From Candidatus Jettenia sp. AMX2 (GTDB lineage: Bacteria > Planctomycetota > Brocadiia > Brocadiales > Brocadiaceae), in contig CP129469.1 of NCBI GenBank assembly GCA_030583665.1, positions 2,533,043 to 2,597,042 on the forward strand: a stretch of DNA of 64,000 nucleotides. Reading direction: 5' to 3'. The notes beneath the pieces are model-generated. The model saw only the letters and a list, made by a program, of their open reading frames with translations, ran no database searches and was not told the DNA's origin. Positions 5,878 to 34,095 of the stretch are shown here, in pieces. Every line of letters starts with the position of its first letter. The stretch's first letter is position 1. The translations under genes and the position numbers were made by a program.

Positions 5878-8800
5878 TCAAATCCCATGGTATTCCTGGA
5901 CAGATTTAACATCCAGGCTTCCGTTCCTTAATGCCTCAATAGCCTTAACAGCAGCCACGGCTCCGGCAACCGTTGTAAAATAAGGCACATGGTGAATAAG
6001 GGCTGTACGCCGTATGGAATAGGATGCCTTCTGGGCAGCTTTACCTTCTATCGTATTAATAACAAGTTGAACCTCATTATTTTTAATATGGTCAACGATA
6101 TTAGGCCGCCCTTCAATTACTTTTAAAACTGGTGTAACGGAAATATTATGTCCAAAGAGTACCTTTGCCGTACCCTGGGTAGCAACAATCCTGAAACCCA
6201 TTTGTAAGAGCTTCTTTGAAATGGATACCATAGACCTTTTATCCCTGTCTCTTACACTGATAAAAACCGTTCCTGTCAACGGGAGGCCGACATCCGCAGC
6301 GATTTGCGATTTGGCATAAGCCCGGCCAAAATCCATATCCATCCCCATCACTTCACCGGTTGATTTCATTTCGGGTCCCAATATCGTATCAACCCCTTTA
6401 AATTTTAAAAACGGAAAAACGGCCTCTTTTACAGCAACATGCTTAAACTCCCTGTTCGTGGGAATATTTAATTCACTAAGTTTTTCCCCTGCGATTACCT
6501 TTGCAGCAATCTTGGCCAGTGGAATACCTATCGCTTTACTCACAAAAGGTATCGTCCTTGATGCGCGGGGATTCACCTCCAGTACATATACTGTTTTGTC
6601 TTTCACTGCATACTGGATATTAATCAGTCCTCTCACATTTAAGGCCAAGGCAATAATCCGGGTCTGCCCTTTTAATTCGAGGATGACATCCTCTCCGATG
6701 GAATACGGCGGCAGGGAACATGCACTGTCCCCGGAATGGATACCAGCTTCTTCAATATGCTCCATTATGCCGCCGATAAAAACCTCTTCACCATCACAGA
6801 CAGCATCCGTATCAATTTCAATGGCATCTTCCAGAAATTTATCGATTAAGACAGGATACTCCGGTGAAACCTGTACAGCATGCCTCACGTAGTCCTCCAG
6901 GCCCATTTCGTCATACACAATCTGCATAGCCCTCCCACCAAGAACATAGGAAGGCCGCAACAGCACCGGATATCCTATCTTGTCGGCAATCAGCTTTGCC
7001 TCTTCTGTTGAACGTGCACAACCATTTTCCGGTTGTTTTAATTTTAACCGATTCATTAAGGCTGCAAACCGTTCGCGGTCTTCGGCGATATCGATACTAT
7101 CCGGCGAGGTACCCAGGATCCTTACCCCCTCTTTCTCTAAAGGTACAGCCAGTTTCAACGGCGTTTGTCCGCCGAACTGGACAATGACACCTTCGGGTTT
7201 TTCCTTATCGATAATCTCAAGCACATGCTCCAGCGTAAGCGGCTCAAAGTAAAGCCGGTCCGAAGTATCATAATCGGTACTTACCGTTTCCGGATTACAG
7301 TTAACCATGATAGTCTCATAACCCAGTTCTCTTAATGCAAAGACCCCGTGGACACAGCAGTAATCAAACTCAATACCCTGTCCGATTCGGTTCGGCCCGC
7401 TCCCCAGGATAATAATCTTCCTGTTCCCGGTAGGCTCCGCCTCGCACGAAGTTTCATAGGTAGAGTAAAGGTATGGGGTAAATGCCTTAAACTCTGCTGC
7501 ACAGGTATCCACATGTTTATATACGGGTCTGACATCCTCTTTTTTACGGTATTCACGTATCGTTTTTTCGGTGACATTAAAGAGACAGCCAAGGTATTTA
7601 TCAGAGTACCCATATTGTTTGGCTTCACGGAGTATCTCTCTGTCCAGTCTGAATATATCGTCATCCTGACCGTTTGCCGAATGCTCCTGTCTTATTTTGA
7701 CCTCCAAATCTAATATCTGCTTTATATTATAAAGAAACCAACGGTCAATACGGGTCCATTTATATATATCCTCAATGCCCGCTCCAATCCGGATTGCATC
7801 GGCAATATGCCAGAGTCTGTCAGGATTCGGAACCATGAGCCTCTCTCTCAGGAATTCGTACCGCTGTTCGTCAGGCCAATTTTCACTTCCCGGAGGCCAT
7901 AATGCATCAAATCCGTACCGTCCGGTCTCCAGGGAACAAATTGCCTTACCCACAGCCTCTTTAAAGGTACGGCCAATCGCCATAACCTCGCCAACGGATT
8001 TCATATGTATGGTAAGCTCCGGATCGGTATCCGGGAATTTCTCAAAATTAAATCTTGGAATTTTTACCACACAATAATCAATCATTGGTTCAAAACAGGC
8101 AGGGGTATAACGGGTAATGTCGTTGGGAATTTCATCGAGGGTATAGCCTACGGCAAGCTTTGCTGCAATTTTAGCAATAGGAAACCCCGTAGCTTTCGAG
8201 GCAAGCGCCGAACTCCTGGAAACCCGTGGATTCATCTCGATTGCCAGCATTTCACCGTTTTCGGGATTGACAGCAAACTGGACATTAGCTCCCCCCGTCT
8301 CAACCCCTATTTCCCTGATAATCTTAATTGCACCATCACGCATCCTTTGATATTCCATATCGGTAAGAGTTTGCGCCGGAGCTACGGTAATGCTGTCGCC
8401 GGTATGAACACCCATTGGATCAAAATTTTCAATAGAACAGACAATGACAACATTATCCTTTCTATCACGCATTACTTCCAATTCATATTCTTTCCATCCG
8501 AGGACAGAACGCTCTATGAGTACTTCGTGAACGGGACTGGCTTCGAGAGCTGCCCTGATATACTCCTTATACTCTTCAATATTATAAGCAGCATTTCCGC
8601 CGGTCCCTCCCAAAGTAAACGAGGGACGGATAATTGCGGGAAACCCTATCTTTTCAATAATCACCATCGCTTCATCATATGAACGGGCGTAACCACTCTC
8701 GGGTACAGAAATGCCGATCCGTTTCATAGCGGATTTGAACAACGACCGGTCTTCCGCCTTCTTAATAGCCTCTAATTTAGCACCGATCATCTCTACCTTG

Positions 8801-17127: not shown

Positions 17128-17739
17128 ATGAAAGTATTAATCGTTTATTACAGTACCTATGGTAATGTTTACAAAATGACAAAGCTTGTAGCGGAAGGGG
17201 TTAAAGAAGTTGAAGGGGCAGAACCACTGATCCGCAAGGTTCCGGAACTGATACCTCAATCGGTTATCGAGCCACGCGAAGATATGAGAGCGGGGAGGAA
17301 TATGCAGAAAGACGTTCCCCTTGTTACCCTGGATGACTTTAAGGAAGCAGGGGCTATTGCTTTTGGCACACCGACAAGATTCGGGAATGTTTCTTCACAA
17401 TTGAAAAACCAGATCGATCAACTTTCACCGCTATGGCTCGCAGGGGAATTGGAGGGCAAGCCGGCAGGCGTCTTTACCTCTACAGGAAGCATTCACGGAG
17501 GACAGGAAACCACCATACTTACCCTGGCAGCGCCCTTAATCCATCTTGGTATGATTATCGTTGGGGTACCTTACTCTGTTAAGGAGCTTTTCTTAACCAC
17601 TGGCGGAGGCTCTCCTTACGGACCAGGCCACGTTGCAGGACAGGATAATAAGCGTGAAATAGATCAGCAGGAAGCGGTAATTTGCCGCGTTCTTGGCCGT
17701 CGCCTCGCTCAGATCGGGCTTTTACTTCAGAGGAAATAA
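17128..17739 (+). CDS. wrbA: NAD(P)H:quinone oxidoreductase, WrbA family
   Basis: A 203-residue flavodoxin-like protein. The FMN phosphate loop is at the N-terminus (VYYSTYGNVYKM). Later motifs are typical of WrbA: FGTPTRFGNVSSQLKNQID and FTSTGSIHGGQETT. WrbA is a tetrameric cytosolic FMN enzyme that reduces quinones by two electrons and so limits oxidative damage. The start lies 5 bases after the stop of the TPR gene, with AAAGGATGTGA as ribosome-binding region, so translation is probably coupled. The functional link to the TPR protein is not apparent. Confidence 0.93.
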   Translation: MKVLIVYYSTYGNVYKMTKLVAEGVKEVEGAEPLIRKVPELIPQSVIEPREDMRAGRNMQKDVPLVTLDDFKEAGAIAFGTPTRFGNVSSQLKNQIDQLSPLWLAGELEGKPAGVFTSTGSIHGGQETTILTLAAPLIHLGMIIVGVPYSVKELFLTTGGGSPYGPGHVAGQDNKREIDQQEAVICRVLGRRLAQIGLLLQRK

Positions 17740-17921: not shown

Positions 17922-19349
17922 ATGAATATTCTTATCATTATTACAAATCGTCATAAGAACCCCGTACCGGTTATCCCTATCGGCGCCTGCCTCGTTGCAG
18001 AAGCAGCCAGACATGCCGGCTATCATGTTCAGGTCATTGACCTGATGTTTAAAAAAAACCCTTTACAAGCGCTGGAATCCGAACTAACTAGGGTTAACTG
18101 GGATGTAGTCGGTCTCTCTGTCCGCAACATTGATAATAATGACATGCAAAATCCGGTAACATTTATCAGGGATCTGATACCGATAGTGGAAATTATCCGC
18201 AACAAAACACGGGCGGCTCTTGTTCTTGGGGGTTCAGCAGTTTCTGTAATGCCGGAGGAATTACTTCGTTATACAAAAGCGGATTGGGCGGTACTGGGTG
18301 ACGGGGAAATTGTTTTCCCGCAATTATTGGCAATGCTTTCCCAGAGAGAAATACCTGATAAAGTTTCCGGGATTGCATGGCTGGAAGACGGCATATTCAG
18401 AAAGAACACGGCGTACGTGGAACGTTTTCTGGATGGATATATGGTTCCTGATTTCTATCGATGGATTGATGTCCGTGCATACCTGTCCAGGTTATCTACT
18501 ATTCCTGTCCAGACAAAACTCGGATGTCATTTTAAATGTATCTACTGCACTTACAGAAAGATCGAAGGACACGATTATCGTTTGTGCGATTCCCGGGTCG
18601 TAGTTGATGCTGTCAAATATCTTGCTTCCCAGGGATTCCGTGATATAGAATTCGTTGATAATGTATTTAATTCTCCTTATGATCATGCCGTGGCCATATG
18701 CAAAGGGCTTGCTGAAATCAAATCTGATATTCGTCTCCAAAGCCTGGAACTGAATCCGCTATTTATAGATGACAACCTTCTCACCGTGATGGAGAGAGCC
18801 GGTTTTACCGGTATCGGTATCACCGCAGAAAGTGCGTCTGATGTTGTTCTGGAAGGACTTAACAAGGGTTTTACCTCAAAAAATATTTACCATGCGGCTT
18901 GCACAATACAACGCCACAAATTGCCTTGCCTTTGGATCTTCATGATCGGAGGTCCCCGTGAAACAAAGGAAACGGTTCGGGAAACCCTGCTGTTTGCAGA
19001 ACAATACATACGCCCGGAAGATACTGCTTTTTTTAATACAGGGATACGCATATATCCGGGTACCGAACTTGAACATATTGCACGGAAAGAAGGTGTTCTG
19101 TCAGTCCCTTCAGAAGAAATGCTCGAGCCGGCATTTTACCTGTCTCCGGCCCTTGACCGGGATTGGTTGTCAAATACCATGCGGCATGCCCTGTCAACCC
19201 ATATGAACTTTATTGATTCAGGCTCCCTTGGTTTGTCATTTCTCCCGGCAATCAACCGTCTTGGTTACAGGCTTGGTGTCCGGCCTCCGCTGTGGAGATA
19301 TACACGCTCCATCCGGCGTTTACTCAAATCGTTAGGAATACCAGCATGA
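17922..19349 (+). CDS. B12-binding radical SAM protein
   Basis: A 475-residue enzyme. An N-terminal cobalamin-binding-type Rossmann domain (about 1-145) contains PIGACLVAEAARHAGYHVQVIDLMF and LGGSAVSVMPEELL; it lacks an obvious DxHxxG, so B12 binding is not certain. The radical SAM core follows, with KLGCHFKCIYCTYR giving CxxxCxxC for the [4Fe-4S] cluster, then EFVDNVFN and GITAESASD elements. Class B-like members methylate or rearrange unreactive carbons. The ATG at 17922 has AAGG 7 bases upstream, whereas that at 17898 has none. The stop overlaps the start of the type III PKS gene (ATGA), so the two proteins are translationally coupled and likely act in one pathway. Confidence 0.88.
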   Translation: MNILIIITNRHKNPVPVIPIGACLVAEAARHAGYHVQVIDLMFKKNPLQALESELTRVNWDVVGLSVRNIDNNDMQNPVTFIRDLIPIVEIIRNKTRAALVLGGSAVSVMPEELLRYTKADWAVLGDGEIVFPQLLAMLSQREIPDKVSGIAWLEDGIFRKNTAYVERFLDGYMVPDFYRWIDVRAYLSRLSTIPVQTKLGCHFKCIYCTYRKIEGHDYRLCDSRVVVDAVKYLASQGFRDIEFVDNVFNSPYDHAVAICKGLAEIKSDIRLQSLELNPLFIDDNLLTVMERAGFTGIGITAESASDVVLEGLNKGFTSKNIYHAACTIQRHKLPCLWIFMIGGPRETKETVRETLLFAEQYIRPEDTAFFNTGIRIYPGTELEHIARKEGVLSVPSEEMLEPAFYLSPALDRDWLSNTMRHALSTHMNFIDSGSLGLSFLPAINRLGYRLGVRPPLWRYTRSIRRLLKSLGIPA

Positions 19350-20443
19350 AAAAACCCATCGATAAAACAGGAACCTCGGGGTCGTTAAACGAAGATGTGT
19401 ATATAGCATCTATTGCAATTACTACGCCGCCATACACTGTCGACCAGCCCCGGGCAGAAGCATTTCTGATAAAACATTATGCAAAAAAGCTAAGCCCTGA
19501 AAGACTAGCAATTATGCATAGAATGTTTTCTCATCCGGGCATAGCACGCCGGCACCTTGCAGTTGATGATCTGGAACAGCTTGTTAATGAGCATCCTGAC
19601 GACCGCATAGCTCGCTTTACAAACAGGGCAGTTGATCTCTCTTCCGAAGCAATTAATGATGCCCTGGCACAGGTTGATTTACCGGTTGATGCTATTTCAG
19701 GACTAGTGGTTAATACCTGTACGGGATATATTTGCCCCGGCATATCGACGTATCTTATAGAAAAGTTGGGAATCTCTCATCAGATACAGGCTTATGACCT
19801 GGTTGGCAGCGGTTGCGGAGGGGCAATTCCCAATTTACAAATGTGCAGGAATATGGCTAACAAAACTGCGGCAGGTGTAATAATGAGTGTCTCTGTTGAG
19901 ATATGCAGCGCCACATTTCAAATGGACGATGATTTGAGTCTGATAGTCTCAAATGCAATCTTTGCAGACGGTGCATCGGCAGCCTTGATCTGGCAGCGTC
20001 CTGTGGGATTAGGATTAACCCTTATTGATTCGGTCAGTCGTTTTGACCCCAAATACCGTGATGATATACGCTATATTTATAAGAACGGAAAACTGTATAA
20101 TCAAATCTCTGTTTTGATACCAAAGATAGCCGGTAAGCTGGTTGCCAAAGTAATATCGGATCTGTTTAAACCCAGAGGATTACGGATAGAAGATATAAGA
20201 TACTGGGTTTTTCATCCGGGAGGAACAAAGGTTATTAATGCGATAAGGGATGAGGTTGGGCTCTCTGAAAAACATTTCCAGGCAACACGCAAGATACTGG
20301 CTAACTTCGGTAATATGTCTTCACCAACCGTATGGTTTGTTTTGAAAGAGATACTAAATGAGGGAACTACACCAGGAGATTGGTGTGTCATGGTGTCCTT
20401 TGGTGCCGGCATGTCTGCACATGCGTTCCTTTTGAAAACATAA
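19346..20443 (+). CDS. Type III polyketide synthase (chalcone/stilbene synthase-like)
   Basis: A 365-residue thiolase-fold condensing enzyme. The catalytic triad of the chalcone synthase family can be read: Cys157 in GSGCGGAIPN, His290 in VFHPGGTKVI and Asn323 in FGNMSSPTVWF. The GNMSS block and the VVNTCTGYICPG segment favour type III PKS over FabH. Such enzymes extend an acyl-CoA starter with malonyl-CoA units and cyclise the product into resorcinol, pyrone or phloroglucinol types. The start ATG overlaps the preceding stop by ATGA and has AGGAA 7 bases upstream; the frame open to 19292 is a shadow of the upstream gene. The product cannot be predicted from sequence. Confidence 0.9.
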   Translation: MKKPIDKTGTSGSLNEDVYIASIAITTPPYTVDQPRAEAFLIKHYAKKLSPERLAIMHRMFSHPGIARRHLAVDDLEQLVNEHPDDRIARFTNRAVDLSSEAINDALAQVDLPVDAISGLVVNTCTGYICPGISTYLIEKLGISHQIQAYDLVGSGCGGAIPNLQMCRNMANKTAAGVIMSVSVEICSATFQMDDDLSLIVSNAIFADGASAALIWQRPVGLGLTLIDSVSRFDPKYRDDIRYIYKNGKLYNQISVLIPKIAGKLVAKVISDLFKPRGLRIEDIRYWVFHPGGTKVINAIRDEVGLSEKHFQATRKILANFGNMSSPTVWFVLKEILNEGTTPGDWCVMVSFGAGMSAHAFLLKT

Positions 20444-21354: not shown

Positions 21355-21894
21355 TTAACCTCCGGTTATACGCATCCATTCTGGCCATTCGGGCCATTTT
21401 GCCCGGAAGGCCTCATGGCAGCCAAAACATGCATTGCGCAGCATCGCATCAAAACTTTTATAGGTTTCAACAATATTTTGGCTCTTAGCCGTTTCAGCAA
21501 TATTCTTTGATGCTTCGGCAACCACTTTTAAATATTTTTCAAAGTCTTTTTTTACTGCTGCGATATCTTCCGGCTTTCCCGGGTCCTTGCCTGTTTCTTT
21601 GAACCATTCACCAACGTTCCCGCTCTCCGGAAAGAAACTTTTTAATACATTCCCGGTACTTTCCGCAATTAACCGGGATTCATTGGTTACCGTATCGTAA
21701 TCGCCGGTTATGATAGCATCAAGCATCCTTGATGTTTTAGAACTTATTATCTGCATTACTGCACGGGTGGGAGAAAGTTCTTCTTTATGAAAAGATTCAA
21801 TAGTATCACTTGCATTTATGCTGCCCTTTCCCGTACAGATCAGTATTCCCGCTATTACAGCAAAAGAATACTTTAATAAAAGACGCTTTTTCAT
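21355..21894 (-). CDS. Periplasmic cytochrome c, class II (cytochrome c'-like)
   Basis: A 179-residue exported haem protein. MKKRLLLKYSFAVIAGILIC begins a signal peptide, with cleavage likely around INA-SD (residues 27-28). A single CFGCH haem-binding motif is near the C-terminus (156-160), and the body is predicted all-helical, both hallmarks of class II cytochromes. Members of this class carry electrons (c-556 type) or bind NO (c' type). The motif preceding CxxCH and the residue giving the sixth ligand cannot be judged by eye. AAAGGAG lies 7 bases before the ATG. It lies 121 bases downstream of the NnrS-like gene on the same strand, which suggests a joint role in NO or haem handling. Confidence 0.85.
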   Translation of the reverse strand: MKKRLLLKYSFAVIAGILICTGKGSINASDTIESFHKEELSPTRAVMQIISSKTSRMLDAIITGDYDTVTNESRLIAESTGNVLKSFFPESGNVGEWFKETGKDPGKPEDIAAVKKDFEKYLKVVAEASKNIAETAKSQNIVETYKSFDAMLRNACFGCHEAFRAKWPEWPEWMRITGG

Positions 21895-22015: not shown

Positions 22016-23767
22016 TTAACTTTTTGCGCTAATGGTATCATTAAGGATTTTGAGAAATTTATCAAGATCTATATTGTGCATCTTTGTCGCCATCTCAATG
22101 CTTGCAACCTTGCCCATGGTTTTTCTCATGACAGGGTTTGCCATCTGTGTGAAACCAAAGTCAAGAAAAACCTTAAGTGTCTCCGGATGTTGATCTACAA
22201 CGTCGGATACTTTTGTATCTTTTGTAATATTGGCCTGCCTCAGGATTGCAGTTGGTTTAACCTCCTGGGTTAAATTCATCGTTCTCCACAAGTTATATCC
22301 AAAAATACCCAATGCTGCCAGTTCAAACCATCCTGATGTCCCGGCTGCTGCATAAAATAAGGGGTTTCCACCAGTAATACCAACCATAATTTGTGAAAAC
22401 ACCCTCATAAAACAACCAACATTTATTAGGACAAAGGTTGTGTTTGATAGTCTTAAACTATACATATTGACACCCTTAAAAGTCGGTACCATTTTAGAGG
22501 CATAGCCAATAATCATCATAGTTACAAAACCTACGGTAACAGCATGATTTAAAGAGCCGTGGAAGAATTTTTGTATCTCTGTGCCATGTTCCAAAAAGGA
22601 CATGGAAGCGAGTATCATTGTACTAACCATAAGCCAGATATATGCGGTACGGATCGTTTTTGCATAGCTTCTGTCCATGACAACATCATCGAGTTCTTTT
22701 GTGGATCTTTCAAAGACCCGAAGACCCCAGATAAATGAAAAAATCGCAAATGCCATAGGAAGAGCAATAATTTGTGAACACCAAAGCGCTATGATATTTT
22801 TATCGGCAAATATCTGCGAAATAAAATAGATCGGAAGGGATAAATTTAAGACCCAAAAAGCCGTATCAACTGCTTCTTCTCTGACAGGTTTCGTATCGAG
22901 AAATGCATATACCGTCCTTATGTTAACGGCAAAAATAAACATAAATACAAAACCAAAAAGGTAAAGATGAACATAAGGGCTGAAAATGGCCCGTGGAATC
23001 TCATAAAGAGAATGGATATTTATATAAAATATCATCCCTAAATTGATTAGGGCTGCAACTACAAGCCACATAATTCCTGCTTTGAAAAACTTATCAAAGA
23101 TACCAATCTTTTCTTTGCTTGACCGGATAGTTTGTAAAATGATAAACGTAAACAAACCAATTGATGTAGCTTCAAAAACAGCAGAGGCAGGAAGTAAGAA
23201 TCTGATGAACTTAAAGGGTTCAAAAGGAAAAGGTTGCGTGATTGTTCTTAAGATAATGCCGGCAGTTATAAGCCCGTAACAAGCGGTCACTAGATTTTTA
23301 TGCCTGATCTCGGCATTTTTTACTCTTGGAATAATATATAGAGCGAATCCCATAACAAAAAGGCCAAGCCATCCGTAAAGTTGTGCATGACCATGAGCCT
23401 GGATGAGGGCATAATATATTGCATCAAAATTTGATTTAAGGGCAATATAGCTAAGAATAAGGGTGCCAAAAGTCACACCAACGGTAAGTGTTATAATAAT
23501 TGCTGTTTTGGCAAAAACCTCATAAACCTTATCTTCTTCAAGCTTTGGTATTTCGATATGTTCCCCACCGCCATTCGCAATAGCCTCGTTCAATTCTTTA
23601 ACAAGGGTTTCGTAATCAACCTCGTGAGCCTTCGCAAAAAAGGCAATCGGCTCATTAGGTCCACGGACACCTCCTGCGATAACAAGATTATATTTCCTGA
23701 ATACTGCTATTGTTTCAGGATGAGACTCAATAAGGTCCTTTATTATCGTATTTCTGTTTATTTCCAT
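22016..23767 (-). CDS. NnrS-like membrane protein flanked by two DUF1858-type domains
   Basis: A 583-residue protein in three parts. Residues 1-70 are a DUF1858-type helical domain (TIIKDLIESHPETIAVFRKY). About 80-500 is a polytopic membrane region of 11-12 helices with AHGHAQLYGWLGLFVMGFALYIIPR (His125, His127), SPYVHLYLFGF and HGSLNHAVTVGF, the pattern of NnrS-type haem/copper membrane proteins. Residues about 515-583 are a second DUF1858-type domain (TKVSDVVDQHPETLKVFLDF). NnrS proteins are linked to NO tolerance in denitrifiers; DUF1858 (as in ScdA/Ric) is linked to nitrosative damage repair. The function here is inferred. No ribosome-binding site precedes the ATG; the promoter lies so close that the message may be leaderless. 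Confidence 0.78.
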   Translation of the reverse strand: MEINRNTIIKDLIESHPETIAVFRKYNLVIAGGVRGPNEPIAFFAKAHEVDYETLVKELNEAIANGGGEHIEIPKLEEDKVYEVFAKTAIIITLTVGVTFGTLILSYIALKSNFDAIYYALIQAHGHAQLYGWLGLFVMGFALYIIPRVKNAEIRHKNLVTACYGLITAGIILRTITQPFPFEPFKFIRFLLPASAVFEATSIGLFTFIILQTIRSSKEKIGIFDKFFKAGIMWLVVAALINLGMIFYINIHSLYEIPRAIFSPYVHLYLFGFVFMFIFAVNIRTVYAFLDTKPVREEAVDTAFWVLNLSLPIYFISQIFADKNIIALWCSQIIALPMAFAIFSFIWGLRVFERSTKELDDVVMDRSYAKTIRTAYIWLMVSTMILASMSFLEHGTEIQKFFHGSLNHAVTVGFVTMMIIGYASKMVPTFKGVNMYSLRLSNTTFVLINVGCFMRVFSQIMVGITGGNPLFYAAAGTSGWFELAALGIFGYNLWRTMNLTQEVKPTAILRQANITKDTKVSDVVDQHPETLKVFLDFGFTQMANPVMRKTMGKVASIEMATKMHNIDLDKFLKILNDTISAKS

Positions 23768-25758: not shown

Positions 25759-28700
25759 ATGAAAAGAAAAAAACAAAGATCAGCGGTTTTGCTGGAAAAG
25801 ATGCTAATCCGGTTTTTTTGTGCTTGCCTTACATTATTTCTTTTTCTGTGGTTCTTCTTTTGTTGCCACGCACCATTGGTGGCCGAGGCGAACAAAGCGG
25901 CCTTGAGCGATCCCTTTTCCGTTGATGGGCTGTATCTTACACGGGACCGCTTGCAGGCAGTATACAATAATGTGCAAGAGCGCCTGGCTGAAGTGTCACA
26001 GGAAAAGGATCGGCTCGTCGCTTTGTATGAACGGCTTCGGATCGATGCGGAAGAACTCGAAGCCGAGTTGGATATCCGCCCCGACACCACAAGTCCTACC
26101 CGTTTCCTGCCGCTCGAGCCTCCATCCAAGCTTGAGCCGGCCGTGGCCATCCCACCCAATATCATCCACACCACCGAATTTTGGAGTCTGGAACAATCCT
26201 ATCAAAATGCAAAGGATGAATCGAAAAGCGCCCGGTCACGTTCGTTTTTCACCCAAACCACTGGACTTCAGGCATGGGGAATGCTTCTTCGGGCCCCGGA
26301 GGCAAGCTATCGCTATGAAATCGCTCTGGCAAAAGCCCGCGCTACGATCATCGCCTACCGGAATTATTTGGAAAAATGGGAATTAGCCAAAACATACCTG
26401 TTCGATGCCATGGAAATCGTACGAAGTTTTCCGGACGATGAAAATAAGGAGATGGCAAGGGAGCGACGGATCCGAATTGAGGACCTTCGGGGAAGATATG
26501 CCACAAAGGAACGCCAAATTGATCTTCGCGATTATGCTGAATGGCAGGATACGGTGCTGACCCTCGAGAGTAAAAGAAACCCGGTAATCGATGAACTGGA
26601 AACAGTGTTCGAAACACTTGCAAAGCATTATCCATGGACATCAACTCAATGGAAGCTGGACGACACGGAAACGCCGTCCGCACCCATCACGCCTGAACGT
26701 CCCCGCCTGATGCTGCCTCGTTTACCATCATCTCCGCCATGGGTTGACCTGGCTCCTCTTGGTCTCCGGCAGATCAACGATACTCTCTACGCTGCCAGGA
26801 AGTTTCGTGCTTTTTTACAAGAGCCTGCCTGGGAGACCTTTGCATCAGAGAGTGTTGACACCAGGCTTTCAGAACTGAATTTCTGGGACGGAGAAATCCC
26901 CCCGGTAACCTTCCGATCCGGATGGTCTGGACCCGAAGGTCTTGTTCCCCGTTTTCGCGGCGAACCGGTAAGGTATCATGCAGCCGTCAGCACACTGCTT
27001 CAGCTGGAAGATTTTAAAGATGTGAGAATATCCATCCTTCATCCCCCCTACGTGGTGTGCGGCGTTGCCTACTATCTGCCTGAACCGGAGGCCGATGAAA
27101 AGATCGAAACAGACACGAGGCGCGCCGAAGGTACACCGGATCTCGCGCAACTTCGGGACCGATCCGAATCTGCGTTTCGCCTGGTGACCGATCGCATCGA
27201 AACACACCAAAGAGAACTCGAAACTTCGTTACAATTGGAACAGCGGCTTCGTGAAACCTATAAAAAATACGGGGAACAAGCCCGGCTTATGCAAAATGAG
27301 CTGCAACAAATACCTGATCTGGCAATTCTCGAGCCATATCCCCCGACCTTCGATCGCAGCCCTTTTGACCTGCATAACATGTCGATGCTCGAACAGCAGC
27401 GTCAGTTGGCTACCGACATGTTTCAAGCGTTAGCCTCTACATTTGATCATTTGCTGAATCCCGGGTTTTCTTCCGATGCTCTCAAACGGGCAGGACGATG
27501 GGCTGAGCGGCACGCTCTCGATTTTCTTTATGCCGCTCCTGTTCTTTTGATCGATGGTCATCTCCTGATGACCCAAAGGCTGCTCGATGTGTTGGATTAC
27601 CGGGATTACCTGGAAAAGTGGAATCTTCACCGCGAGTTTATCGAAAGAGCCCGCGCCCTGCATCTACAACGAGCTTCACGAAACGGAAGATCCGGTCTGA
27701 ATGAACGTGAGCAGCTCCACAATGAGTACGGGGAAAAGGAAAAGCTGCTGCATGCCGCAAGTCGCGATGCCTGGGAAGAGATTGTCACCGCACGCACTGC
27801 GAGCTTGAATGAGTTGTTCAGGCAAGTGGAGCAATTGTTGCAAGGCATACCGCCTAAATCCTGGGATGACCGTCCATGGCTCTACAAACTACCTGTGTCG
27901 AACCTGAACTGGCCGCAAGGCCTGGACTTCAAACGTATAAATGACCGGTTCGATGAGACCCGATCAGACTGGGTCAATCTCACGTCACTTCATTTGTACC
28001 TGTTTTTCAGACATCCTCTGGACTTTGGAGTGTTGAGATCAGAAGCCGAAATTTCGGCACCCGCTCTTCCGACCTTCGAGGAGAGTGAACCCGATCCCGG
28101 TAAAAGCGAGCCTTCCCTTATTCCACCGCCCGCACCACATGAAGTGCCCGGCCACCCGTTTGTCATCATATCTCGTGATACACCCAGGCCGGAGAATCCG
28201 AGGATGGTCGTTCTTCCTAGAACCAGGGATCCTTTCGGGAAATTCTCCGAACATCAGGAGGCCCCGGAAAATGCGCCCTTTGCCGGCATTGGCGTGCATC
28301 TGGCGGATGGTTCCTTTGTACACCGAACCTCAGATCTGACACTTCATTCCCGGGATGATGAGGATTTCGATTTCGAGCGAACCTACCGGAGCAATATCAA
28401 GTACCAAGGAACATTGGGGCCTAATTGGGACTTCAAGTACAATCAGCGCATCGTTGAGGTGGAAGACATTCTCATCCCCATCAAAGACGCGCCATTGACC
28501 TGCGGCCAAGAGTTTCCCCGTGATGACGGAACAGGTCAAGGAAATGATCTCCGGTTCTTTGACGGTAACGGCCGTCTCTTTCTTTATACTTTCAAAAAAG
28601 CCGAGCAGAAAAATATAGTCCTCTGGGGCGTATGGAAAGGAGACGCTCTGGTTTCGACCTATAATTCTCCTGCAGGTCGCTTTGATGAATTGCTCCGAAT

Positions 28701-31700
28701 CGTTATCATGCCCGAAGGAAACCGTGAGTTCTCTACCGACCTCGATAGTTCAATCGTTCCGTCTTGGATCTTCTATGTGCGTCGGGAAAAAGACGGAACC
28801 CGTTATTTTTATAATTGCCATGGCCTTCTCACCCGCATTTTGGATCGGAATATGTTTCGTGAGCTTCAATTCGGATATGACGGACCATACAATCCCCTTA
28901 CACTCACGCAGACCTTGAGTGCCATAAAAATTGTTCATACCGGTATGCTCATCAAATTGGAATATGAGCTGCTTTCTGAAAAAGAACCTCCGCGGCTGAA
29001 AGGGCTGGTCGTCCGAAGCTATCGCGGATTGAAAAAATTCATCGGGTACGCATACGACGAACAGGGGAGATTGCACGAAGTGACGCTTCCGGGAAGTACG
29101 GAACAGAATCCGGTCATGCTCAGGTACCATTACCGTGACGAAAACCTGCTCACCGAAATCACCGCACCACGGGAAGTTGCCCGCAATGGGGTACCCTTCC
29201 TGAAAAATGATTACTCCAGTGGTCGTGTCGTTCTGCAAACGTGGGGAGTGCCTCCTGAAGATGGCGGGACGTATACATTCAAATATGAGGGTCTATCCGT
29301 TGAAGTTAAGGATCCGAGGAAAAACACGACGGTCTATACATTAAAATCGGTAAATGAAAATATCGTTACGGAACGAATCACTGAAATAGGAACTGAGGAA
29401 GGTAAATCATGGACGACGTCATTCGATTACTACCCTTTCCTTCTCTGGCGCCGCATCGAATTCCCAAAGGGTAATGTTTTGGAATATGAAAGGGATAAAG
29501 AGAATGATTTCATTACACTCGATGGTGAACCTTACAACAGATTAAATCAGGGTAATATCCGTTCCATTGCGCGAATCGGTAAAAACGGGAACAAACTCGA
29601 ACAGTTAACTTACACTTATGAGTCATATTTCAATGAAGTGGAAACGGTCACTGACGGACGCCGGTATACGACGACCTACAAATATGAACCAGGCTTCAAA
29701 CGCCCAGAAGCTTACCGGAACGGCCGGGCCGTCAGGGTCATCTATCCAGATTTGACTACCGCCGGGGGCACGGTTCACAAAGATATCCACGAGATCATTG
29801 AATGGACTCCCTTCGGACCTCTCAGGATCACCGATGTTGGAAAACATGAAACCAATTTCATTTACGCAAGCACACCGGAAGGTCTCTTTTCCATCACCCG
29901 GCAGCATCCCGATTTGACAACCCGGACCACAACCTTTGACGAATGGTGGAACGTGCGAACTATCAAAGACGAGCGTAATATTGTGACAAAATTTGAATAT
30001 GACGGACGCGACCGCCCCACCGATCATTATGATGATACTGATGGTTTCAATATCCACACTTCCTATAAATATGACGAAAACGACAATGTTATACGGGTGG
30101 AGCGTGAATGGAAAGATATGTTCGACAGCAGCGCCCATCCCGCGCTTTCACGGCTTCCCCAGCAACCAAAAAAACATATTCGCACTTACGACTATTATGT
30201 CCGGGGTATGCTGAAGTCAGAGACCGTAGAGTTGGATGACACTACGACTCTTACAACCTCCTTTTACTATGACGGCTACGGCAATCTGCGAAGAATCGAA
30301 TCCCCTTTGACCGGCGTCACCCAACGGTTTTTCAACGAGCGCAATCAACTCTCGCGGATCAGCAGTGGCTCCCAATCAGATGTGCTGGTCAGTGAAAAAT
30401 TGGACTATGATGACAACGGTAATTTGGAAAAGCACATCGATGGAAGAAATAGCATCACCACCTACCTTTATGATGAATTTGACCGATTTGAAGGGTTTAT
30501 CGATGCCGCAGGCAATAAAGTCGAACATATATTGGATGATGCCGATAACATCAAGAGGGCAAGAGTCTTGGGCCACCCCGGAGGGCCGACACCTTCTGCG
30601 GACAATAACCCGAAGATCCTCTTAAGCGATGTCGAATTCGAGATTGACGAGCATAATCAGGTGCATACCCGGCATGAACACGTTTTGGAAATCAAAAACG
30701 GAGAGAGCGTCAAGACCGGCACACTGTCTACCCGTTATATATACGACAGGGAGGGGCTACTCGACATCATTGTCGATCCTTACGGTCACAAGACAGATCA
30801 TGATTATGACAAGCGGCGCCGGTTGACGAAGGTCACTGATGCAACCGGAAATTACACCAGGTGGGTTCTCGATAGAAACGGAAATATCGAGGAACTTCAT
30901 GAGCATGAGGCAGCTCAGGAAGGCGCGTCGGAACCCTCCCGGACCTATGTTACCAAGTGGGCATACAACAGCCTGAACGATCAAATCGCCGAAACAGACC
31001 CGCTGAATCGGGCTACCCGCTTCTTCAGGGACAGTCTCGGCAATCTCAGGGCTCAGATCAGAAAGCGTGGAACTGCCAACGGCTTCCCCGCCCTCTATGG
31101 CTGGGATGCATTACACCGGAAAAAAGAGGTGCGGGTCGAATGGGTACGCGATGAAAAAGAGGGCGAGGGACGGAGACCACGGTGGAACGATCTGGTAACC
31201 ATATATAATTATGATTTGACAAACGGCACCCTTTTACTCACCGTCGCGGAAAAACTGGAGGATTGGCAAAACGGCGGTAATGATGACGATTTTTTCCGCA
31301 CAACCGAGCTTCATCACGATGCATTGGGACGGCTCATCAAGACTGTTCGCCCTGACGGAACGATCTTTGAAGTCATGGAGTACTACCCCGACGGTCATCC
31401 TTTGCGCACAAAAGACGCCAATGAGACAAAAGTCACCAACACATACGATGTCCTCAACCGCCTGGTCAAGCGCACGATCGAACCGGGTGAGGGCATCGAA
31501 GGCGTTACGGTGGAACACTATGAATATGACGGGCTGGGACGAATAACCGCGGCCGGCGGTGACGGGTACGCGGATTTCAGCTACGACTCCCTTGGGCGCG
31601 TATTGAGCGAACAGCAGGCATTGCGGGCCAGAGTTGACGAGGAAGATGATGGACGGCTCAAACCAACGGTTGTCCTCCATGCCGGAAGGACGATCACACC

Positions 31701-34095
31701 CCGGGAACCGAAAGTGGTCACAACGACATACAAAGATACCGCCCCCATGACGGTAACACACACCTATCCTGCCGATCGGTTTCAAGTTGAGAAAGAGTAC
31801 GACCCTTTGGAACGGGTACGTTCAATTGTCCTCCGTTCCAATGGTGAGGAACGGGACCGTATAGATTACCGTTACATCGGGAAAACCCGCGTAAGCACAC
31901 GGGCTTATAACAACAACACAAAAACCCGCTATTTTTATTCCGATGATCGCCTTTTAAAGAGCGTCGCCCACTTCAGCCCCCAGGGAAGAAAGCTCCCCCG
32001 CGGACTGGAACCGCCCTTGAGCCCCGAAGAAATGAAAGTTGTCTGGGATGCTGTCCGCGATCTTCCGCGAGGCGAAGATCCTATATTTTCAACGAGTGAA
32101 CCGCTTCTTGCCGCCTATTTTGCACTTCGCGACGAGGAAGGGAATGTTTTCCTTCAGGATCACATCCATCCTCTACCCCAAACCAGACCCGGTACGGATC
32201 ATTGGCACGGGGAAAGAAGAATTTTCGGGTATGACAGTTTAAATCAGCTTCAAATCCAGAAACATTTCATCTCCCTGTATCGAAGAGAAATGGCCGGAGG
32301 CTCGCCTCTTTCGGAAACATCGGCCCAATACCATCAATACCTTCCAACGGGAGCTCGAATGATCACCGAGAGTGTCGAACATTACGATCCCCCGGCGGGT
32401 TTGGGAGGAAACGTGAAGCGCCGTGAACTCACCATCGCTCGCACGCCTGTCGGTAAGGATGTCCGGTACGACCCGATCAGGGTGGATCGGATAGACAGTC
32501 TGACGGATATGATTCCACCGACAGAAGAGCGGTTTTCCGAATCGTTCGGCTACAAATTCGACAAAGCAGGAAACCTGACTAGCGATACATTGAACAACAT
32601 CGAGTATCGTTACGATTACCGGGGAAGGCTGGTGTCGGTGAACTACACTGATGACGGCACAAGTGTACACTACCGGTATGATCCATTCGACCGTCTGATA
32701 TTACGGGACATCGAACTCAGACCCGGAAGTAAGCCTAGAACAATCCGGACATGGCTTATTTACAGCGGTGAGACCTGCATCGAGGAGTTTCCATTTGACG
32801 GCGATGCGGCACCTCTCGGAAAGGGCCGGACCCGATATGTCTGGGGCGGCGACCCCGACGAGCTTGTATGGATAAGTCGTGTGCGGGACGTTTCGGCAGA
32901 TACTGAACCAATAGAGGGAAACTATTTTGTTCATGAAGATTTGAATGGCTCATGGCAGTTTTTCACAACTCCCCGGTCGATAGAAAAGGCCGGTATGATT
33001 GAAATTCGGGATTGGCGGTGGAAAAGGCAGGCCCCAAGCATCGGAAGCCATACGATCCTGCCGCTGCCGGTTGTCGGCACCCGCTATGAGGCCTATTTCG
33101 AAGGGAATCTTCTTGGGGGCCGCCCTCTGTTCGATTTCGAAAAGCCCGTCAACTTCTCATCTCGGCACATGGAGCAGTTCAGGGCGGAACTCACTCGTAG
33201 AAGGTGGGAAATGGATTCGTGGGTACTGACCAGGATACTCGCTCCCTTCGGAGGACCCTTATCTGCAGGAATTGAAGGGCTGGGGTGGGCTGCCAGGCTG
33301 GGATTGATAGCAACGGGGAATATATCCCCGGAGTGGGATGACAGGCTTGAAAAAGCGCTTTTTATTGCTGATGTATCTGCCGGCATCGGTTCTCTGGCTT
33401 TTGCTATTGCACGCCCCGATAAATGGACGCGTATGGCTGCCTCAGTTGGAGGAAGCCCTGAAAAATGGCTCAGAACTCGATGGATGCGGAGCCTTGTCTA
33501 TCAGCGTGTGCTGGACCGGAGTATCGAACTGCGCCGGTTTGTAGCGACCGGGTTCCCGGGCCGTGCCGGAGGACATATTACCTTTGGCACTGCAGGTCGC
33601 ATCGGGAAGGAAGGTGTTCAGCGGTATGTCTCGGTGAATGTTGGGATCAGAGGTATTCCGTGGTGGGAATATGCCGAGCGGGGTATCGTCAGGAAAAATG
33701 AAATCCTCGTACTTACCCTGGGTCGTGCTGCGGGCGGGGGATCGGTGCATGCCGAGGCATCGCTGTTACGGCACCTTGTCCATGAAGGCGGATACCTCGT
33801 AGTCGGAGCTAGCCGGCATATCTGTCCCGAATGTGCCGCCCGATTATTTCAACATAATATACAAAGCGCCGTTCCGTTCCGGCTACTCGGAACAGATCCT
33901 AATCCCAGGATGCTCAAATCAGGTAAAATAAGGTATTCAGGAATGGTGCGTTTTCTGCACGTTTTGACCGGTGCCGATGAGGCAGCGATTAGCGGACTGG
34001 GACGAGCTGGACTGGAAGACTTGCGAAATTATTTCTTTCCTAAATATCCGCGCAGAGCCGGCCCCGGGTTCGGTAAACCCTTTCCAGGCAGATAG
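25759..34095 (+). CDS. Giant RHS/YD-repeat protein with C-terminal deaminase-like toxin domain
   Basis: 2778 residues. A hydrophobic N-terminus (about 18-42) suggests export or anchoring. Residues 45-790 form a charged, coiled-coil-rich region made of two divergent copies of one module (YRNYLEKWEL at 200, YRDYLEKWNL at 614). From about 840 an RHS opening (GSFVHRTSDLTLHSR...FERTYRS) leads into many YD repeats up to about 2310, which in RHS proteins build a hollow shell around the toxin. After a hydrophobic linker (2500-2550), the tail has HAE (2664-2666) and CPEC (2689-2692), the zinc motif of the cytidine-deaminase fold used by nucleic-acid deaminase toxins. No PAAR, VgrG or immunity gene is adjacent. 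Base composition is visibly richer in G+C than neighbours, suggesting acquisition. Confidence 0.87.
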   Translation: MKRKKQRSAVLLEKMLIRFFCACLTLFLFLWFFFCCHAPLVAEANKAALSDPFSVDGLYLTRDRLQAVYNNVQERLAEVSQEKDRLVALYERLRIDAEELEAELDIRPDTTSPTRFLPLEPPSKLEPAVAIPPNIIHTTEFWSLEQSYQNAKDESKSARSRSFFTQTTGLQAWGMLLRAPEASYRYEIALAKARATIIAYRNYLEKWELAKTYLFDAMEIVRSFPDDENKEMARERRIRIEDLRGRYATKERQIDLRDYAEWQDTVLTLESKRNPVIDELETVFETLAKHYPWTSTQWKLDDTETPSAPITPERPRLMLPRLPSSPPWVDLAPLGLRQINDTLYAARKFRAFLQEPAWETFASESVDTRLSELNFWDGEIPPVTFRSGWSGPEGLVPRFRGEPVRYHAAVSTLLQLEDFKDVRISILHPPYVVCGVAYYLPEPEADEKIETDTRRAEGTPDLAQLRDRSESAFRLVTDRIETHQRELETSLQLEQRLRETYKKYGEQARLMQNELQQIPDLAILEPYPPTFDRSPFDLHNMSMLEQQRQLATDMFQALASTFDHLLNPGFSSDALKRAGRWAERHALDFLYAAPVLLIDGHLLMTQRLLDVLDYRDYLEKWNLHREFIERARALHLQRASRNGRSGLNEREQLHNEYGEKEKLLHAASRDAWEEIVTARTASLNELFRQVEQLLQGIPPKSWDDRPWLYKLPVSNLNWPQGLDFKRINDRFDETRSDWVNLTSLHLYLFFRHPLDFGVLRSEAEISAPALPTFEESEPDPGKSEPSLIPPPAPHEVPGHPFVIISRDTPRPENPRMVVLPRTRDPFGKFSEHQEAPENAPFAGIGVHLADGSFVHRTSDLTLHSRDDEDFDFERTYRSNIKYQGTLGPNWDFKYNQRIVEVEDILIPIKDAPLTCGQEFPRDDGTGQGNDLRFFDGNGRLFLYTFKKAEQKNIVLWGVWKGDALVSTYNSPAGRFDELLRIVIMPEGNREFSTDLDSSIVPSWIFYVRREKDGTRYFYNCHGLLTRILDRNMFRELQFGYDGPYNPLTLTQTLSAIKIVHTGMLIKLEYELLSEKEPPRLKGLVVRSYRGLKKFIGYAYDEQGRLHEVTLPGSTEQNPVMLRYHYRDENLLTEITAPREVARNGVPFLKNDYSSGRVVLQTWGVPPEDGGTYTFKYEGLSVEVKDPRKNTTVYTLKSVNENIVTERITEIGTEEGKSWTTSFDYYPFLLWRRIEFPKGNVLEYERDKENDFITLDGEPYNRLNQGNIRSIARIGKNGNKLEQLTYTYESYFNEVETVTDGRRYTTTYKYEPGFKRPEAYRNGRAVRVIYPDLTTAGGTVHKDIHEIIEWTPFGPLRITDVGKHETNFIYASTPEGLFSITRQHPDLTTRTTTFDEWWNVRTIKDERNIVTKFEYDGRDRPTDHYDDTDGFNIHTSYKYDENDNVIRVEREWKDMFDSSAHPALSRLPQQPKKHIRTYDYYVRGMLKSETVELDDTTTLTTSFYYDGYGNLRRIESPLTGVTQRFFNERNQLSRISSGSQSDVLVSEKLDYDDNGNLEKHIDGRNSITTYLYDEFDRFEGFIDAAGNKVEHILDDADNIKRARVLGHPGGPTPSADNNPKILLSDVEFEIDEHNQVHTRHEHVLEIKNGESVKTGTLSTRYIYDREGLLDIIVDPYGHKTDHDYDKRRRLTKVTDATGNYTRWVLDRNGNIEELHEHEAAQEGASEPSRTYVTKWAYNSLNDQIAETDPLNRATRFFRDSLGNLRAQIRKRGTANGFPALYGWDALHRKKEVRVEWVRDEKEGEGRRPRWNDLVTIYNYDLTNGTLLLTVAEKLEDWQNGGNDDDFFRTTELHHDALGRLIKTVRPDGTIFEVMEYYPDGHPLRTKDANETKVTNTYDVLNRLVKRTIEPGEGIEGVTVEHYEYDGLGRITAAGGDGYADFSYDSLGRVLSEQQALRARVDEEDDGRLKPTVVLHAGRTITPREPKVVTTTYKDTAPMTVTHTYPADRFQVEKEYDPLERVRSIVLRSNGEERDRIDYRYIGKTRVSTRAYNNNTKTRYFYSDDRLLKSVAHFSPQGRKLPRGLEPPLSPEEMKVVWDAVRDLPRGEDPIFSTSEPLLAAYFALRDEEGNVFLQDHIHPLPQTRPGTDHWHGERRIFGYDSLNQLQIQKHFISLYRREMAGGSPLSETSAQYHQYLPTGARMITESVEHYDPPAGLGGNVKRRELTIARTPVGKDVRYDPIRVDRIDSLTDMIPPTEERFSESFGYKFDKAGNLTSDTLNNIEYRYDYRGRLVSVNYTDDGTSVHYRYDPFDRLILRDIELRPGSKPRTIRTWLIYSGETCIEEFPFDGDAAPLGKGRTRYVWGGDPDELVWISRVRDVSADTEPIEGNYFVHEDLNGSWQFFTTPRSIEKAGMIEIRDWRWKRQAPSIGSHTILPLPVVGTRYEAYFEGNLLGGRPLFDFEKPVNFSSRHMEQFRAELTRRRWEMDSWVLTRILAPFGGPLSAGIEGLGWAARLGLIATGNISPEWDDRLEKALFIADVSAGIGSLAFAIARPDKWTRMAASVGGSPEKWLRTRWMRSLVYQRVLDRSIELRRFVATGFPGRAGGHITFGTAGRIGKEGVQRYVSVNVGIRGIPWWEYAERGIVRKNEILVLTLGRAAGGGSVHAEASLLRHLVHEGGYLVVGASRHICPECAARLFQHNIQSAVPFRLLGTDPNPRMLKSGKIRYSGMVRFLHVLTGADEAAISGLGRAGLEDLRNYFFPKYPRRAGPGFGKPFPGR

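Follow-up and report, generated by a model that had tools for sequence, protein, structure and literature searches.

Two neighbouring genes of an anammox bacterium, encoding a B12-type radical SAM protein and a type III polyketide synthase (PKS), raise the question of whether they form a functional unit and, if so, what this unit produces. In the first-pass annotation the radical SAM enzyme was proposed to act on the product of the PKS, for example by methylating it. The window, i.e. the whole stretch of DNA that was analysed, comprises 64,000 nucleotides of a Brocadiales genome that consists of one 3.46 Mb contig and encodes hydrazine synthase. Chance open reading frames can be ruled out for the two genes, because both frames are conserved across Brocadiales (about 57-74% identity) and both proteins are predicted to fold with high pLDDT in AlphaFold2 models (mean 92.7 for the radical SAM protein and 91.9 for the PKS). 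Pfam assigns a B12-binding domain to residues 17-135 (E = 2.3e-16) and a Radical_SAM domain to residues 201-358 (E = 2e-14) of the former; together with the alignment, this confirms the N-terminal B12-binding domain and the CxxxCxxC motif (C202-C206-C209) that had been read from the sequence at the outset. The latter matches Chal_sti_synt_C (E = 7.7e-19) and FAE1_CUT1_RppA (E = 8.6e-16). The positions of the two genes and of their characteristic residues are listed in the table.

Table. Genes and residues of the PKS-radical SAM locus, in window coordinates
Feature	Position	Strand	Remarks
B12-binding domain/radical SAM protein, 475 aa	17922..19349	+	ATG start; PKS-linked sister family of TIGR04072; predicted TsrM-like fold
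Type III polyketide synthase, 365 aa	19346..20443	+	ATG start; own subfamily; start overlaps upstream stop (ATGA)
Arg68 codon, equivalent of TsrM Arg69 (under cobalamin)	18123..18125	+	within RNxD motif, invariant in 38/38 relatives
CxxxCxxC [4Fe-4S] motif (C202, C206, C209)	18525..18548	+	
Val248 codon, aligned with TsrM Glu273	18663..18665	+	35 Val, 3 Ile among 38
Catalytic Cys157 of PKS	19814..19816	+	
Catalytic His290 of PKS	20213..20215	+	
Catalytic Asn323 of PKS	20312..20314	+	
WrbA-type NAD(P)H:quinone oxidoreductase, upstream of the pair	17128..17739	+	membership in the system uncertain

The immediate neighbours of the PKS in the window are the radical SAM gene and the WrbA-type gene upstream and a gene for cytochrome c' (21355-21894) downstream. 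The latter adjoins a COX1/NnrS-like membrane protein with two DUF1858 domains (22016-23767, minus strand), and an ORF of 2778 residues resembling an RHS/YD-repeat protein lies further downstream (25759-34095, plus strand). Neither a cobalamin riboswitch nor another RNA was detected in the window at the gathering threshold. A pattern scan of the window was uninformative, yielding 7 promoter-like sites versus 6.2 expected and 5 terminator-like sites versus 2.9 expected.

Joint inheritance of the two genes was followed in 62 Brocadiales genomes, with one survey per protein. Both occur in the identical 31 of these 62 genomes, which share ancestry and do not represent 62 independent trials. The PKS was counted at at least 55% identity, fragments in incomplete genomes included, and the radical SAM protein at at least 58% identity, one of the latter being a 108-residue fragment; a genome with merely a 42-residue PKS remnant containing a stop was left out of the count (G020). 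By family code, the pair is found in 24/33 genomes of f1, 7/17 of f4, 0/9 of f3, 0/2 of f2 and 0/1 of f5. The two PKSs of f2 are of another kind, as judged from their identity of 28-29% and their placement with the reference enzymes in the PKS tree. In one genome (G038), the two genes reside on separate contigs, and the radical SAM contig extends for 4.6 kb on the PKS side without a PKS; both genes are kept nevertheless, so that they are linked through joint retention as well as through position. Isolated paralogues of the radical SAM protein with 37% identity also exist in anammox bacteria (L124:7318-8709, minus strand; L128:2918-4309, plus strand), and no PKS or lipid genes were seen beside the former.

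For a view beyond Brocadiales, PKS patterns were run against named genomes and yielded 133 relatives; the 80 best of these were taken as named loci, most of them from metagenome bins. The patterns were derived from the PKS only and did not select for a radical SAM neighbour. In 57 of these best 80 loci, a radical SAM gene of the window type (at least 45% identity) lies directly upstream on the same strand; the next commonest neighbour family occurs in 14. The remaining loci have a related gene elsewhere nearby (10 loci: nine of a type found in Geomonas and one on the opposite strand), are cut by a contig end (3) or contain no radical SAM gene in the stretch (10). According to record titles, the genes are adjacent in 20/22 loci of Nitrospirota, 17/20 of Planctomycetota, 6/15 of Thermodesulfobacteriota, 7/7 of Elusimicrobiota, 3/4 of Myxococcota, 1/2 of Nitrospinota, 1/1 of Pseudomonadota and 2/3 of unassigned origin, as well as in 0/4 of Fibrobacterota, 0/1 of Lentisphaerota and 0/1 of Omnitrophota (contig end). 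The carriers of the pair are thus anammox bacteria and members of several other phyla, mostly anaerobic, and the remark in the first-pass annotation that planctomycetes make unusual lipids turns out to be too narrow, since most named loci belong to other phyla. The expectation that the pair is conserved as neighbours is borne out by both surveys. The ATGA overlap by which the two genes had been described as coupled is present in the window, but it is not a general feature: only 17 of the 57 adjacent pairs show it, and the spacing in anammox loci ranges from overlap up to several hundred bases.

Pairwise distances of the two proteins correlate with r = 0.579 (29 rows), with r = 0.867 when the Geomonas type is left out (27 rows) and with r = 0.94 outside anammox bacteria (18 rows). 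None of 2000 permutations reached such a value, although a correlation would also be expected under plain vertical descent. The PKS and the radical SAM gene are a conserved two-gene unit, although the pairing is not strict: the Fibrobacterota loci (L118, L120, L102 and L106) lack a radical SAM gene within the stretch (4/4), and the Geomonas-type operon uses another radical SAM subfamily. The Fibrobacterota loci contain a U32 gene (4/4), a FabF-like ketosynthase (3/4) and a UbiE-like methyltransferase (3/4); in several Nitrospirota loci, a DUF5714 protein, kin of the double selenoprotein MbdU, is encoded downstream of the PKS (L066:2567-3418, plus strand). That the two genes are mere neighbours without a common product, through chance or shared regulation, is very improbable: some loci do carry just one of them, but presence and absence coincide over the 62 genomes and adjacency recurs in several phyla.

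What does the PKS contribute? The first-pass annotation classified it as a type III enzyme with the full catalytic triad, and both statements hold. The triad (C157, H290 and N323) is invariant in 40/40 aligned relatives; for residue counts, 40 PKSs and 38 radical SAM proteins were picked for spread from the 80 loci. Its best PDB matches in sequence and profile searches are type III PKSs, as are all of the top 50 PDB matches listed by Foldseek for the model. In a VIA-align comparison, the best match is the alkylpyrone synthase PKS11 (Z 48.5, 344 residues, 1.6 Å), followed by the resorcinol synthase CylI (Z 47.1). The 93 rows of the PKS tree are made up of the window, the named loci except L084, which was too short (79 of 80), 10 plasmid references (matches below 60% identity from a plasmid search for closer relatives), the two f2 PKSs and the FabH of the genome itself. 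In this tree, from which OleA is absent, the family separates from FabH/KASIII (support 100) and likewise from the references DpgA, PhlD-annotated, Rhizobium, Sphingobium, Nitrobacter, Tsukamurella, Hyphomicrobiales and Streptomyces (support 100). Built quickly and with long branches leading to the references, the tree supports these splits and not the assignment to a nearest type III family. The nearest named relative of the window PKS is that of Candidatus Loosdrechtia aerotolerans, with which it shares a fork (support 93).

Two other identities of the PKS were considered and rejected. A FabH-like ketoacyl synthase is at odds with Pfam, tree and fold matches. DpgA (NF042429), the top NCBIfam match, scores 170 bits against a cut-off of 425, and dpgB-D do not lie beside the window PKS. 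No second type III PKS was found in the window genome, where the sole other match is FabH-like (26% identity) and PF02797 has one match. Judged by sequence and predicted structure, the protein is a genuine type III PKS that forms its own subfamily.

With PKS11, PKS18 and CylI the window PKS shares the fold, the triad and small residues: T126, C130 and C187, invariant in 40/40 sequences, align with T144, A148 and C205 of PKS18, which line its acyl tunnel. These residues are consistent with an open acyl tunnel. The enzyme differs from the three synthases in its low identity (24-27%) and in an invariant Asn252 (40/40) at the position of the chalcone synthase (CHS) gatekeeper Phe265; a Tyr or Phe (position 243) occupies the place of CHS Gly256, where the CHS numbers follow the alignment and the usual numbering. 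The cyclisation pocket is thus unusual, so that the ring formed is a guess and known enzymes offer no guide to its chemistry.

The radical SAM protein matches three NCBIfam families in the order TIGR04072 (rSAM_ladder_B12; 326.5 bits, cut-off 360), BzaD (162.2 bits, cut-off 450) and the tryptophan 2-C-methyltransferase TIGR04428 (102.8 bits, cut-off 500). With TIGR04072 it shares full-length homology, domain order and an RNxD motif. The difference lies in context and score: TIGR04072 is linked to the FASII/ladderane cluster and the window protein to the PKS; the PKS-linked proteins tested score 240-326 bits, the ladderane-cluster proteins L125 and L127 440 and 411 bits. In the radical SAM tree, likewise a quick one, the window type separates from ladderane-cluster proteins, isolated anammox paralogues and Geomonas-operon proteins (support 98); long branches are flagged at the junction of the Geomonas-type and ladderane rows. 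On sequence grounds, the protein is therefore a PKS-linked sister of the TIGR04072 family, below its cut-off. The RNxD motif is absent from 8/8 further radical SAM proteins that were retrieved from the window genome and could be read (three more were unreadable) and from 13/13 proteins of a second radical SAM family in Desulfuromonadales loci; it is present in L125, L127 and the isolated paralogue L124, and hence marks a wider group, not the PKS-linked type alone.

This kinship, in an anammox host, could suggest that the pair belongs to ladderane biosynthesis, which was rejected on cut-off, distribution and neighbours and is the least probable of all readings. L125, the ladderane-cluster member from the genome assigned to K. 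stuttgartiensis MBR1, exceeds the cut-off that the window protein misses, and no other TIGR04072 match above 105.4 bits exists in the window genome. KAS, FabG/FabZ and desaturase genes, which adjoin the ladderane-type paralogue in L125 according to the ORFs read, were not found beside the pair in the window. Hydrazine synthase (PF18582) occurs in 40/62 Brocadiales genomes, among them 6/9 of f3; the pair is missing in 31/62, including all nine of f3, and is found in many non-anammox bacteria. With many hydrazine-synthase-bearing lineages lacking it, the pair is not required for ladderanes. At L125, the TIGR04072 B12-radical SAM gene (7352-8713) is carried by the canonical ladderane-type cluster.

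The predicted structure points to another relative. The closest solved fold is that of TsrM, a tryptophan C2-methyltransferase (Z 36.7, 2.6 Å over 464 residues), followed by MgmA (28.6) and AprD4 (28.5). TsrM uses Arg69 to block cobalamin on its lower face and Glu273 to prevent SAM from coordinating the cluster (PMC8992657, PMC13331322). Profile alignment of the sequences equates Arg68 with Arg69 and Val248 with Glu273; position 68 is Arg in 38/38 relatives, and position 248 is Val in 35 and Ile in 3. The resemblance to TsrM hence appears to be confined to the cobalamin side and does not extend to the cluster side. Further differences from TsrM are the family score (103 bits versus a cut-off of 500) and the lack of a tryptophan/RiPP context. 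BzaD acts in aromatic (benzimidazole) methylation (PMC9306752, PMC6461909). As far as enzyme class goes, C-methylation, as first proposed, fits: TsrM is the nearest structure, and BzaD and the tryptophan 2-C-methyltransferase are the next families after TIGR04072.

The B12-radical enzyme most likely adds a methyl group to the product of a lipid-type PKS. In the preferred reading, to which a probability of roughly 40% may be assigned, a long-chain lipid of the resorcinol or pyrone type, made by the PKS, is C-methylated by the radical SAM partner, probably on the ring. The two genes together would produce one modified polyketide lipid in the following manner: The PKS would load a long-chain acyl starter, extend it with malonyl units and cyclise the chain, giving an alkylresorcinol (or alkylpyrone). 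Its radical SAM partner would then methylate a carbon of this compound via methylcobalamin; an electron-rich carbon of the ring is the most likely target.

Not every B12-radical SAM enzyme is a methylase. The enzyme could instead modify the acyl chain, before or after the PKS, by a methyl branch, cyclisation or other sp3 chemistry, which is a serious if rather unlikely alternative. Replacement of Glu273 by Val or Ile leaves the cluster free for ordinary SAM cleavage; the enzyme may thus depart from the non-radical mechanism of TsrM, which leaves room for radical chemistry on the alkyl chain as well. AprD4, a radical dehydratase, shares a DxVF stretch, and the sister family TIGR04072 is located in FASII/ladderane clusters. 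The invariant equivalent of Arg69 argues for ring methylation, as does the fact that the nearest named families, BzaD and TsrM, target aromatic carbons.

Ring methylation of such lipids may have a counterpart in aerobes. In aerobic Planctomycetia and picocyanobacteria, an operon of methyltransferase, FAD oxidoreductase and PKS makes alkylresorcinols, and ring C-methylation has been suggested for the G. maris cluster (Milke 2024, PMC10896814). In the hierridin-type hidABC operon as in the pair, a type III PKS is joined by a modifying enzyme, and the product of the pair would likewise be a long-chain alkylresorcinol; where hidABC relies on an ordinary methyltransferase together with an FAD oxidoreductase, the pair has a B12-radical SAM enzyme. 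No methyltransferase and FAD oxidoreductase lie directly beside the PKS in the window. The window PKS falls in a clade apart from the Sphingobium PKS-monooxygenase-methyltransferase reference, in a tree that HidC itself is outside of. In anaerobes, the radical SAM step would replace the ring C-methylation that is seemingly carried out by an ordinary methyltransferase in some aerobic Planctomycetia clusters.

The Geomonas-type loci resemble hidABC more closely. Their order is radical SAM gene, an extra protein in some, methyltransferase (best match PRK06202), U32-family protein and PKS. Methyltransferase, U32 and PKS thereby repeat the order of hidABC, with U32 replacing the FAD oxidoreductase; in two loci (L087 and L093), the methyltransferase is instead flanked by a gene resembling FAD monooxygenases. 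These Desulfuromonadales-type loci also contain a second B12-radical SAM gene, convergent with the PKS (L077:9128-10543, minus strand; best NCBIfam match BchE, below cut-off). The U32-family protein directly before the PKS (L077:6772-8004, plus strand) has two four-Cys sets and is a possible O2-independent hydroxylase of the polyketide: C180, C184, C212 and C216 (L077 numbering) are invariant in 14/14 sequences, and four further Cys near the C-terminus are kept in 13/14. Its place, that of the oxidoreductase, recalls UbiU and UbiV, O2-independent hydroxylases of the U32 family that replace flavin hydroxylases in ubiquinone synthesis (PMC6747719). By analogy, the methyltransferase and the U32 protein before the PKS suggest an O2-independent variant of a quinone-lipid route.

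Could the pair in anammox bacteria be the core of such a route to methylated alkyl-hydroquinone/quinone redox lipids, with the remaining steps encoded elsewhere or absent? This is unlikely. A WrbA-type quinone oxidoreductase does lie upstream in the window (TIGR01755, 196.5 bits, cut-off 132.5), but WrbA is common and found upstream in just 9/20 Planctomycetota loci. The Geomonas-locus U32 family is represented in the 62 Brocadiales genomes by merely two fragments and no full-length homologue, and its Cys spacing is unlike that of UbiU and UbiV. A broader scenario is slightly less probable still: many anaerobes would form a methylated hydroquinone/quinone lipid of polyketide origin in an oxygen-independent way, the PKS providing an alkylresorcinol, the TsrM-like enzyme C-methylating its ring and, in Geomonas relatives, the U32 iron-sulfur protein hydroxylating it, with anammox bacteria holding a two-gene core.

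Published accounts state that no polyketide synthase-like enzyme was found in K. stuttgartiensis (Rattray 2009, PMC2649909), an absence repeated later (Javidpour 2016, PMC4790861). The pair is present at 364328-366821 (G032:C1) of the genome assigned to K. stuttgartiensis MBR1, a finding that corrects this view. Milke 2024 (PMC10896814) describes a lower PKS abundance in Ca. Brocadiae, and the terms "radical SAM" and "anammox" do not occur in its main text. Searches of the open-licence literature found no description of the combination of PKS and B12-radical SAM enzyme. A conserved, putative two-gene lipid pathway across several phyla can now be named, and the pair represents a small, testable system for the function of the TsrM-like/ladderane B12-radical SAM family, which has hitherto been hampered by unknown substrates.
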